Source: Haliea sp. E1-2-M8 (GTDB lineage Bacteria > Pseudomonadota > Gammaproteobacteria > Pseudomonadales > Halieaceae). Taken from it: a stretch of DNA of 64,000 nt. The position numbers were made by a program, and so were the translations under genes. Below the pieces are notes generated by a model, which saw nothing but the letters and a program-made list of their open reading frames with translations, had not been told where the DNA came from and made no database searches. The stretch lies in contig NZ_JAUTDR010000005.1 in assembly GCF_030649675.1 (NCBI RefSeq), forward strand, positions 124,001-188,000, given 5' to 3'. Positions 2,609 to 4,916 of this stretch are shown piece by piece (the first letter of the stretch is position 1; each line of letters starts with the position of its first letter).

Positions 2609-3031
2609 ATGACGACAGAGACAGACAACAAGGCAAGGGCCCGCCAGTTCCTGGCAGACCTGAGCGCCGGCAATGTAGACGGGGCCCTTGCTGCCTACGC
2701 GAAGAACGGCTGCGTTGAAACCATGGGTTCGACGCTGATTTCCGGTGTCAGCGAGTATCCCGAGCTGCCCGGCGCCATCGCCAGCATCATGGAAGTCTTC
2801 CCCAAGGGCATCACCTTCACCGTACGCGGCATGGTGGCAGAGGGGGAAAAAGTGGCGGTGGAAGCCTCCAGCGAAGGCGAACACGTCTCCGGCCAGACCT
2901 ACAGCAACGACTACCACTTCCTGTTCGAATTCGACAAGGGCAAGCTGGTCAAGCTGACGGAGTACATGGATACCGAGCAGGTGACCGACGTGCTCTGCCG
3001 CGGGCAGCGGCCGCCCTACCCGCTCGACTGA
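2609..3031 (+). CDS. SnoaL/NTF2-like fold protein
   Basis: A 140-residue single-domain protein of the NTF2/SnoaL-like superfamily. These small cone-shaped proteins act as isomerases, cyclases or ligand binders, and the sequence does not tell which. The family pattern is visible: an N-terminal helix (KARARQFLADLSAGNVDGAL), then alternating strands ending in a YHFLFEFDKGKLVKLTEYMD hairpin. No signal peptide or membrane segment is present. It stands alone, with a 172-bp gap upstream, and is followed by the long repeat-bearing intergenic stretch. No specific substrate can be assigned. Confidence 0.75.
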   Translation: MTTETDNKARARQFLADLSAGNVDGALAAYAKNGCVETMGSTLISGVSEYPELPGAIASIMEVFPKGITFTVRGMVAEGEKVAVEASSEGEHVSGQTYSNDYHFLFEFDKGKLVKLTEYMDTEQVTDVLCRGQRPPYPLD

Positions 3032-3080
3032 GGCTTCGTATCCTGCCATCCAGGGCAGGCGCTGTTGGTGCGGGGACTTC

Positions 3081-3182
3081 GAGAGCGGGGATGGGGCTGA
3101 CGGACACGCCGTCAATACGTCCGTGTAGGCTTGTTTGAAACATCCATGTTTCATACAGTCCGTCAGCCCCCTTCCCGCCCTC
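3081..3182 (+). repeat. Cruciform repeat module A
   Basis: A roughly 55-nt core (3104-3158) starting ACACGCCGTCAATAC is flanked by arms that are inverted repeats of each other: 3081-3105 pairs with 3158-3182 at 22 of 25 positions, 13 of them contiguous (GGGGCTGACGGAC with GTCCGTCAGCCCC). Inside the core is a second perfect hairpin, TGAAACAT-CC-ATGTTTCA (8 bp, 2-nt loop). The core recurs inverted at module B at 47 of 55 positions. No transposase or coding sequence is present. Confidence 0.85.
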
Positions 3183-3375
3183 AAAGTCCTTCAGACTCAG
3201 TGGTGGCTGCAAGCCTATGCAACCTGCAAGCCACGAGCGGATTCTGCAGCCCCGGAGTGCTCCCGAAGTTAGGCAGACCCAGTGCGTGGATCTGCGAGCC
3301 TGGTGCTGAGCTGTGCGCTTCGAGCCTTGTAAAGTGCCGAGTATTTCGAGTCTTGTGCCGTAAGAGGCATAGGGA

Positions 3376-3469
3376 GCCCCGCCCCCCATCTCGGACTGTT
3401 GAAAACATGGATGTTTTCACCAAGCCTACAGGGATGTATTGACGGCGTGTCCGAGATGGGGGGCGGGGC
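3376..3469 (-). repeat. Cruciform repeat module B (inverted copy)
   Basis: The reverse complement of 3396-3450 matches the core of module A. The flanking arms are a different sequence from those of A, yet form a perfect 20-bp inverted repeat (3376-3395 with 3450-3469). The inner hairpin is TGAAAACAT-CC-ATGTTTTCA, one pair longer than in A with matching changes on both sides. Conserved core plus diverged but self-complementary arms implies that base pairing, not arm sequence, is maintained. Confidence 0.85.
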
Positions 3470-3513
3470 TACCGATGCCGGCGACGTTGCGAAAACAAGC
3501 CTAAACTGCCGCG

Positions 3514-3597
3514 CCTGGGCGGCCCCACCTGGGCGGCCCCACCTAGCCGGCCGCACCTGGGCGGCCGCACCTAGGCGGCCCCACCTAGGCGGCCCCA
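3514..3597. repeat. 14-bp tandem repeat array, six units
   Basis: Six head-to-tail 14-bp units: CCTGGGCGGCCCCA twice, CCTAGCCGGCCGCA, CCTGGGCGGCCGCA, then CCTAGGCGGCCCCA twice. The last unit overlaps the 3' end of the minus-strand gene that ends at 3585 and supplies its final codons and TAG stop. A related single unit occurs at 25328-25342, and a three-unit 14-bp array that also carries CACCT lies at 40299-40340. Confidence 0.9.
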
Positions 3598-4712
3598 TCA
3601 AACCAGTCGTTAAAGCCGTAGCTGCGCGACGGCCCGATGTGCATCTGCTCGAGGACGCCGTGGCCGACGCGGTCGCCGCAGGTGGCGCGCACGACCTGTT
3701 GGACATGCAGGTTCTCCAGCGCCAGTGGGTCGAGGTCGCTGTCGCGCCAGCTCTCCCCGGCAATCACCAGCTCGCCGTGCCACTTGCCGTGGCCCCACTG
3801 CGGATGCTGGTAGCCCAGGCCCTTCATGTGGTGCACCAGTAGCGGTTCCAGGGTGACGGTCATGGCCTCCCCGGCGCGATCACGCATGGTCACGGTGGCG
3901 CTGGCGGCGCGGCGGGTGCCGGGTAGCATGGTGATGTCGTGCTCGACCGCGCCCTGCCAGACAGTGGCCGCGGGGTCGCTGGTACCGGGAATAGCCTCGA
4001 CGTTTTCGTAGCGTGGCAGAAACCCCTGGTCGCAGTGCCACTGGTGGCCGCTGTCGTCCTCGAACCAGCCCGCCAGGCTGCACTGGTCTTGCCAGTGGAT
4101 CGGCATCCAGCAGAAATGCACGGCCTGGAAGTTGCTGATCGGGGCGCCACCCGGCCAGGGCTCACCCACGGGGCGGATGCCCCAGGAACGGTCCTTGAGG
4201 CCAAAGGTGGTGGCACCGTCGACCCGCAGTTCACGGCCATCATAGCGAATCCAGCCATGCCAGCTGCCAAACTGATCGAGGCGTGTCGCATCCATCACCA
4301 GATGCCGCTCGTTGCGCAGAGTTTGCCTGCCCTCCTCCATACACGCTGTGTAAGACGTAAACACCAGGTCGCACTCAATGCCCGTATCGTTGGCTGCGAT
4401 GGTCAGCTGATGGCGGCCCATCGGTTCGAGGATATGCAGGACAAAGGGTCCGACGCTGGTATCGGTGGGCTCGGACGGCGCCCGGCGCGAGCCGTGGAAA
4501 GCGTATTGTTGGCCGTCCAGCGCCAGGCTCAGGCTGCAGTCCATGATGCCCAGGTTGGGATAGCGGCAGAGACCGATCCCGAAATAAAAGCCGCCGTCGC
4601 GGTCGTGGGCGTTGTACCAATAGCGGTCATAGGTACAGCGATCACTGCTGGCGGTCAGCGCGATGGGTTCGGCGGTCTGGTGAATGGGGTAGTCGTCGAA
4701 TCTGGAAAGCAT
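3585..4712 (-). CDS. Uncharacterised beta-rich protein (CrtC/AttH-like, DUF7064/DUF7065 type)
   Basis: A 375-residue soluble protein. The many Trp/Tyr/Asp-rich strands and the motif GLKDRSWGIRP near the middle resemble the two-lobed lipocalin-like fold of hydroxyneurosporene-synthase/AttH relatives and the uncharacterised DUF7064/DUF7065 proteins; this is a pattern judgement. Members are often found in bacteria that degrade steroids or aromatics, but nothing nearby supports that here. The start was set at the ATG at 4712 (MLSRFDDYPIH); an in-frame codon at 4772 would add 20 residues of non-conserved look. No signal peptide or membrane segment is seen. The stop codon lies inside the 14-bp tandem array. 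No function is assigned. Confidence 0.6.
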   Translation of the reverse strand: MLSRFDDYPIHQTAEPIALTASSDRCTYDRYWYNAHDRDGGFYFGIGLCRYPNLGIMDCSLSLALDGQQYAFHGSRRAPSEPTDTSVGPFVLHILEPMGRHQLTIAANDTGIECDLVFTSYTACMEEGRQTLRNERHLVMDATRLDQFGSWHGWIRYDGRELRVDGATTFGLKDRSWGIRPVGEPWPGGAPISNFQAVHFCWMPIHWQDQCSLAGWFEDDSGHQWHCDQGFLPRYENVEAIPGTSDPAATVWQGAVEHDITMLPGTRRAASATVTMRDRAGEAMTVTLEPLLVHHMKGLGYQHPQWGHGKWHGELVIAGESWRDSDLDPLALENLHVQQVVRATCGDRVGHGVLEQMHIGPSRSYGFNDWFDGAA

Positions 4713-4916
4713 TGTGGCGGCCCATTTGTTATTGGAGTTGGCTCGAGCATGACCGAGCGCGATGCCCCGCACAAGCGCAACACGGCTACGGCCGCACCCC
4801 GTTCAGCAAATCAAACCAATAGTGGGGCGAGGCGCTGATGCCTGTGAAATTGCCTGTGGGTTTGTCTCCCGCGCCGGGTCGAATTACACTGCGCTTTTCC
4901 CCGGGAAGCGTCCGGC

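Follow-up and report, generated by a model that had tools for sequence, protein, structure and literature searches.

Introduction

The decoys of the Csr/Rsm system are each one small RNA gene with many binding sites, and among mobile repeats the MITEs of the DNA-transposon type offer a comparison through IS630-, Correia- and RUP-like elements. A described system close to the locus reported here is TwoAYGGAY (RF01731), which is tabulated as a probable RNA of the human gut, gammaproteobacteria and Clostridiales (PMC2864571). Its outer stem has been described as poorly conserved, and the binding of TwoAYGGAY by CsrA has already been proposed from motif matches (PMC4333381). A high-affinity Csr/Rsm site is given as a hexaloop, ANGGAX, that sits directly on a stem and in which N and X are variable; in RsmZ this stem is closed by a C-G pair (PMC4005645). 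REP sequences are palindromes of 20-40 bp that carry an unpaired tag, GTAG or CGTC (PMC3733652). Further sources drawn on for comparison were PMC4383904, PMC2267715 and PMC2817692.

Layout of the window locus

The window is a 64,000-nt stretch of DNA (contig C45, positions 124001-188000) from a 4.84-Mb draft genome of 94 contigs. It contains two inverted modules, A and B, located between convergent genes. In the following list, gene calls come from a codon-usage script made for this analysis and are not an annotation, and R2 is the covariance model described in the next section.

2609-3031, plus strand: gene for a SnoaL-like protein; flanks the modules and is convergent with the gene at 3585-4772
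3074-3189, minus strand (the AYGGAY, or selected, strand): module A, core and both arms; R2 88.2 bits at 3094-3169, minus
3074-3105: module A, left outer arm, 32 nt; pairs with 3158-3189, 88% complementary
3102-3161, minus strand: module A core, 60 nt, GGAC...GTCC
3116-3127, minus strand: module A hairpin 1, with ACGGAC as its loop on this strand
3136-3153, minus strand: module A hairpin 2, with ATGGAT as its loop on this strand
3158-3189: module A, right outer arm, 32 nt; partner of 3074-3105
3190-3365: spacer between A and B; no gene called; homologous spacer without modules in the sister species G006
3366-3479, plus strand (AYGGAY strand): module B, core and both arms; R2 89.1 bits at 3385-3460, plus
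3366-3396: module B, left outer arm, 31 nt; pairs with 3449-3479, 94% complementary
3393-3452, plus strand: module B core, 60 nt
3400-3419, plus strand: module B hairpin 2, loop ATGGAT
3427-3438, plus strand: module B hairpin 1, loop AGGGAT
3449-3479: module B, right outer arm, 31 nt; partner of 3366-3396
3585-4772, minus strand: gene for a 395-aa protein with no Pfam match; flanks the modules on the other side

The initial annotation had placed an element with two inverted core copies at 3081-3469. The element is real, but it reaches 7-10 bases further, and the count of 47 of 55 matching core positions over 3104-3158 was exact on recount. Across 3101-3162 and 3392-3453 (62 nt), the inverted copies are complementary at 54 of 62 positions (87%). 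A and B have unrelated arms, yet each arm pair is self-complementary (88% over 32 nt in A and 94% over 31 nt in B), and the inner hairpin differs between A and B on both sides together, both as had been noted from the letters. When three mismatches were tolerated, a pattern of 32 core bases was found twice in the window against 0.00 expected from 100 shuffles. The predicted stabilities of the folds are -71.5 kcal/mol for A and -75.7 kcal/mol for B. A plasmid search with the modules' region gave no match at an E value of 1e-5, and no theme was seen among 10 neighbor proteins of modules in this genome.

Fold and family of the modules

BLAST with the modules' region against its own genome gave 29 matches, and 23 distinct copies were drawn from their loci. 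The R2 model consists of these 23 copies together with a structure that we supplied, and it finds 39 copies in the genome (E <= 0.001); the further copies that had been predicted were thus found, and relatives have them too. The fold is a three-way junction at which the arm stem meets two hairpins: in hairpin 1 the ANGGAN loop is flanked by TAC or CCC, and in hairpin 2 it is flanked by about seven variable pairs. On the 23 copies the supplied structure gave 94.1% standard pairs compared to 70.4% in shuffles, and a covariation score of 0.591 compared to 0.158, a score that 0 of 500 shuffles reached. When the structure was slid along the same alignment the score was at most 0.086, and 17 of the 25 pairs had changed on both sides. 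The pairing and covariation values uphold the earlier suggestion of a structured element.

Most copies in this genome have private arms, while three at unlinked sites share arms (identity 0.81-0.93). At one locus (L097 4266-4429; C3:160865-161028) two modules point the same way and lie only 12 nt apart, measured between model ends, and their cores and inner arms are near-identical.

Length and divergence of the arms

Arm length, with GGAC included, has its mode at 31 (67 of 379 modules) and its quartiles at 28.5 and 33; 10 of the 391 profile hits lay too near sequence ends for arm measurement, and L109 and one L070 module were excluded from the arm counts. Beyond the arms, the columns of 105 modules are near-random; the exceptions are the 5′ foot, which reads purine-GG, and the 3′ foot, which reads CC-GG. 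Further out, CGAAG forms a weak motif that occurs in 37 of 175 modules compared to 9 in a control stretch.

In comparison with the same-genus species G006, identity was 77% in the arms, 87% in the cores, 86% in genes and 69% in other intergenic DNA, over 11 clusters of which one (L116/L096) was mis-oriented. Because the identity of the arms is close to that of other intergenic DNA, the arm sequence is nearly free. Among place-matched modules with an arm identity of at least 0.7 (11 of 18), 26 arm positions had changed on both sides compared to 7.3 expected, and 17 of the 26 are Watson-Crick pairs in both species. This excess agrees with the earlier proposal that pairing is kept during arm drift. 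All 18 place-matched pairs together gave 117 such positions against 46.9 expected, a kind of excess that unrelated arms also give (583 against 425.7 in 39 random pairs). In four of the seven dropped module pairs, the arms at the same site are 28-43% identical and the cores 76-88% alike.

Two comparisons at gene junctions common to two species, L111 (3709 and 4059) with L093 (4051 and 4294) and L120 (4043) with L094 (4038), show cores that are kept and arms that are unrelated (28-31% identity). Unrelated arms at common junctions may be the result of replacement, or of repeated insertion at one place.

Order, genomic place, gain and loss

Among 116 neighboring module pairs at the loci chosen, the order was -,+ in 100, ++ in 5, -- in 4 and +- in 7; outside the named set (83 pairs) these counts were 80, 1, 2 and 0, respectively. 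The -,+ order means that the AYGGAY strands point outward. Some of the +- cases come from -+-+ arrays at the Xanthomonas loci L186, L216 and L240. Of 159 single modules, 11 had a further long hairpin on the side predicted for a partner and none had one on the other side. By eye, seven of these 11 cryptic hairpins keep recognizable pieces of the core, and those at L063, L064, L095 and L227 do not. At L095, L063 and L064 a larger imperfect hairpin with 45-nt arms lies 5′ of the module, on the expected partner side, and encloses a GGCACATCC(A/C)TGTGCC hairpin. Arrays of three to four modules in one orientation, spaced by about 180-235 bp, were seen in L147 (a Saccharophagus MAG) and in G034 (C27 and C22); these depart from the -,+ rule.

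Clear neighbors were present at 196 of 254 clusters, which lie between tandem (118), convergent (64) or divergent (14) genes. No gene was called inside any of the 24 clusters of this genome, none of the 24 lies between divergent genes, and the modules mostly face a gene end. A role as a terminator of the upstream gene or as an antisense barrier fitted these 24 clusters, but it failed in the 196 clusters and in the comparison of sense and antisense modules given below.

Many of the sites are old, since 12 G006 loci, chosen from the 29 copies of that genome, all match element-bearing loci here. Gain and loss between species was compared at 4 of the 24 clusters. At the window locus, G006 has both flanks and the homologous spacer, lacks both modules, and retains a short arm remnant with no core. 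At the L092 locus the genes of five relatives are separated by only about 13-45 bases, and those of G006 by a coreless remnant; at L098 the module is absent in five relatives; and at L091 the species have two modules, one, a remnant or none. In addition, a whole unit of about 335 bp is inverted relative to its flanks (L121 compared with L103), and four units at different loci of G022 have both arm types in common. We considered L116/L096 as a flipped module, but the leftover arm in G006 makes the loss of different partners likelier.

These bounded units, the gain and loss between species and the arms shared across loci support the earlier idea of a mobile palindrome family. The accompanying idea that the arms were copied from the insertion flank lacks support, since arms have a typical length of 31 bp, move with the core to other sites and then diverge pairwise. 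At the window locus, the G006 remnant fits deletion equally well as insertion, so there flank copying is no more than unlikely.

Distribution and MITE-like units

Matches to R2 were found in 25 of 38 genomes of relatives, this one included (E <= 0.001), and in 25 of 114 genomes of the class, again including this one (E <= 1e-5; 42 candidates per genome were scored). A scan of named sequences gave at least 118 stretches, each of which the core profile also hit at E <= 0.01; among the matches listed these were gammaproteobacterial or unclassified proteobacterial, and those from Yersinia were weak (19-30 bits).

Terminal inverted repeats and near-identical bounded copies, by which MITEs are recognized, are present in G072 and G104, where copies are numerous and some lie at contig ends. 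The G072 unit (19 units, 206-210 bp, with two longer rows that span neighboring units) ends in CTAAATACGTGTTCCGAAT and its complement, and folds back with the three-way junction at its tip; no target duplication was evident at its flanks. Of eight complete G104 units, six measure 361-364 bp, one measures 314 bp and one, located away from the module, 162 bp, and they end in CAGG(A/C)TGTTGAAAAA; three of the eight have 4-bp duplications, CTAG or CTAA. An additional GTGCANGGANGCAC hairpin is present on the same strand in 11 of 23 G104 copies. The ends of the G072 and G104 units are unrelated to each other. In G120 the repeat is 117-148 bp long, little beyond the module itself, and in the Halieaceae units, that of the window included, the weak outer motif was seen but no terminal repeat or target duplication. 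The same module is thus carried by at least two distinct kinds of MITE-like unit, and it also occurs paired or alone. The mobility of bounded units in G022, G072 and G104, together with gain and loss in this genus, is well supported. In four of 22 G104 copies (L350-L369), the core was seen by eye to be flipped against the body of the unit of about 363 bp, which indicates that the core can invert inside its arms.

Protection of one strand

A symmetric cruciform, or correction against a template, predicts equal numbers of G.T and A.C mismatches. On the AYGGAY strand the G.T:A.C counts were 65:11 in the copies of this genome and 121:22 in relatives, and 51:8 and 112:18, respectively, when restricted to the outer arm beyond the model. 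Modules found with a sequence-only profile gave 591:117, or 613:133 with four more genomes. By genome or contig, 96 were for the asymmetry and 11 against, with 28 ties; G104 has no G.T excess (1:1) and G072 has the reverse (3:9), both with few mismatches. The ratio was alike for modules sense (67:12) and antisense (79:17) to genes. Since ratios are alike and pairs mostly place one module on each strand, replication direction and neighboring transcription are not the cause. The transition mismatches are mostly G.T, and less often A.C, on the AYGGAY strand, and the fold of this one strand therefore seems to be selected in most genomes examined, a result that is well supported. The locus had been described as a structured element of DNA or RNA: the structure stands, a symmetric DNA cruciform is disfavored by the asymmetry, and it is mostly the fold of one strand that is protected.

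Loops and possible Csr/Rsm sites

In the relatives' set (227 modules), CANGGANG forms the loop of hairpin 2 in 142 of 169 parsed modules and of hairpin 1 in 157 of 163. In the named set (152 modules, among the matches listed) it forms the hairpin 2 loop in 106 of 121 parsed modules; hairpin 1 of this set was fixed by the search pattern. Both sites are present in 162 of the 227 relatives' cores, with a single site in 60 and none in five; among the matches listed, 121 of the 152 named cores have both and 31 have one. The opposite strand carries the motif in 6 of 227 relatives' cores and, among the matches listed, in 14 of 152 named cores. In G104, G072, G120 and G126, both sites occur in 67 of 68 cores scoring above 25 bits.

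The hexaloops of the modules mostly follow the rule of ANGGAX on a stem closed by C-G, and their free positions are identical to published ones. Because both loops match the published high-affinity Csr/Rsm site, we read the protected strand as a possible working RNA, and we infer from the loop sequences that RNA of the AYGGAY strand may be bound by CsrA. This reading is weakened by two results: no promoter signal was found beside 374 modules, and constraint on sense and antisense modules is equal. In 47 units between tandem genes, conservation of the module sense to the upstream gene did not exceed that of the antisense module (score p = 0.96), and single modules were sense in 27 cases and antisense in 41 (p = 0.11). 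The presence of CsrA does not discriminate, since 27 of 29 genomes have it with or without the element.

Comparison with known systems

The curated cut-off of RF01731 is 43 bits. One copy in this genome (C1:155773-155900) scored 44.7 bits in an alignment that covers the two hairpins and the outer stem in their proper order, and is the only one of three reported RF01731 matches in this genome above the cut-off. Module A scored 32 bits, below the cut-off, and module B gave no hit at E values up to 5. At least 7 of 38 genomes have an RF01731 hit over the cut-off, in a search that scored 54 candidates per genome and missed the 44.7-bit copy. At the Rfam gathering threshold no match was found in the window or in L095, L096 and L104; the 44.7-bit copy lies in L095 and came up only under laxer filters, which gave 13 rows, 12 of them sub-cut-off microRNA models, as long hairpins attract such models. 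The modules resemble TwoAYGGAY in the order of their two AYGGAY-loop hairpins and in an outer stem of poorly conserved sequence, and add to the descriptions drawn on here the -,+ pairing, the fixed arm length, the dispersal and the MITE setting. We regard the modules as divergent TwoAYGGAY relatives and not as certified members. In the literature searched, which was mostly outside subscription papers, no description of TwoAYGGAY as mobile DNA was found.

The likeness to the Csr/Rsm decoys RsmZ and CsrB, as far as the cited account goes, lies in ANGGAX hexaloops on C-G-closed stems (PMC4005645). In contrast to these decoys, the modules have two putative sites each, are scattered in dozens of copies and show no promoter signal. 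With MITEs they share short units in which no gene is called, near-identical copies and, in G072 and G104, terminal inverted repeats, and 4-bp duplications were seen at three of eight G104 units; they differ in arms of free sequence and in carrying as cargo a conserved three-way junction that is common to units with unrelated ends.

REP, REPIN and BIME repeats are likewise extragenic palindromes that form inverted dimers, and the alternating -+-+ arrays of Xanthomonas recall them. However, a module is 114 nt long with stems of about 27-31 bp, compared to REPs of 20-40 bp with stems of 5-13 bp, and its boundaries are purine-GG and CC-GG with no GTAG or CGTC tag. The link to a Y1 or TnpA-REP transposase that had been suggested was not borne out, as neither of the two PF01797 loci in this genome has an element within about 1.5 kb on either side, which also separates the modules from REPIN/RAYT systems. 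Size, the missing tag and the finding that copies flank no Y1 gene of this genome led us to reject a REP/TnpA-REP identity. The modules also lack the T-run of an intrinsic terminator, since no run of T-rich columns follows the arm in 105 modules.

Possible function and alternative explanations

Our preferred reading, which we hold with a little less than even confidence, is that A and B are the halves of a dispersed, non-autonomous unit of the MITE kind that carries an RNA fold of the Csr/Rsm type. The units would be moved in trans by transposases. The sole task of the long arms, whose sequence is nearly free, would be to keep the junction closed, and the protected strand would work as RNA through its two ANGGAX hexaloops closed by C-G. 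Because of the -,+ order, any transcript that runs through a unit, whichever its direction, would carry one sense module, and this module could bind CsrA/RsmA and so titrate the protein or mark that transcript. The -,+ order may just as well reflect the layout of a transposon that has modules close to its ends. It is doubtful, in our judgment, that gammaproteobacterial MITEs repeatedly took up a two-site CsrA/RsmA decoy, with bursts that rewire Csr/Rsm and copies selected for their fold.

Single-stranded DNA hairpins are recognized in REPIN and IS200/IS605 systems, and the hairpins of the AYGGAY strand could similarly be a DNA signal for a transposase or host protein, with RNA uninvolved and the -,+ order set by transposon ends. 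Bounded mobile units, the fixed relative orientation of the modules, constraint that is the same for sense as for antisense modules and the absence of a promoter signal would all be expected if this were so. We nevertheless consider it somewhat unlikely, because the loops fit the Csr/Rsm rule position by position, because two MITEs with unrelated ends share the module, which is odd for the recognition end of one transposase, and because no Y1 gene lies beside copies in this genome. Less probable is an orientation-independent element at transcript ends, in which the long stem would block exonucleases or mark RNase III cleavage without CsrA, roles that have been proposed for REP/BIME repeats. 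The 196 clusters are mostly tandem or convergent and the fold is very stable, as such a role would have it, but any mobile DNA would likewise avoid divergent regions, no U-tract follows the arms, and the loop conservation and strand asymmetry are left unexplained. That the modules have no function, their arms being kept complementary by template switching during replication (quasipalindrome correction), is highly improbable: it predicts equal G.T and A.C counts where 613:133 was observed, and core and loops are conserved beyond pairing, even though copies are often lost and arms diverge at near the intergenic rate (77% against 69% identity, with cores at 87% and one locus mis-oriented).

If the preferred reading, a mobile unit carrying a Csr/Rsm-type fold, is true, an Rfam RNA of unknown function would sit at the tip of mobile elements, and structure-based RNA screens could pick up mobile DNA. 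Transposition would then deliver ready-made binding sites for a global regulator, making regulatory RNA out of mobile DNA. With numerous natural copies, a single loop rule and a known protein, the CsrA reading can be tested directly. Even without an RNA role, the modules offer an unusual and measurable example of structure that is conserved without its sequence: the long arms are fixed in length and free in sequence, and their pairing is protected on one strand.

A tandem repeat beside the modules

To the right of module B, at 3508-3599 of the window, is a tandem array with a 14-nt unit (CCTGGGCGGCCCCA and variants). The array unit CCTGGGCGGCCCC occurs 17 times in the genome, compared to 0 for a backward control. 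Fourteen array-like bases lie inside hairpin 2 of two other modules of this genome (C2:132153-132242 and C89:36478-36567), and bases similar to the array unit are also inserted in one G006 module (L112).
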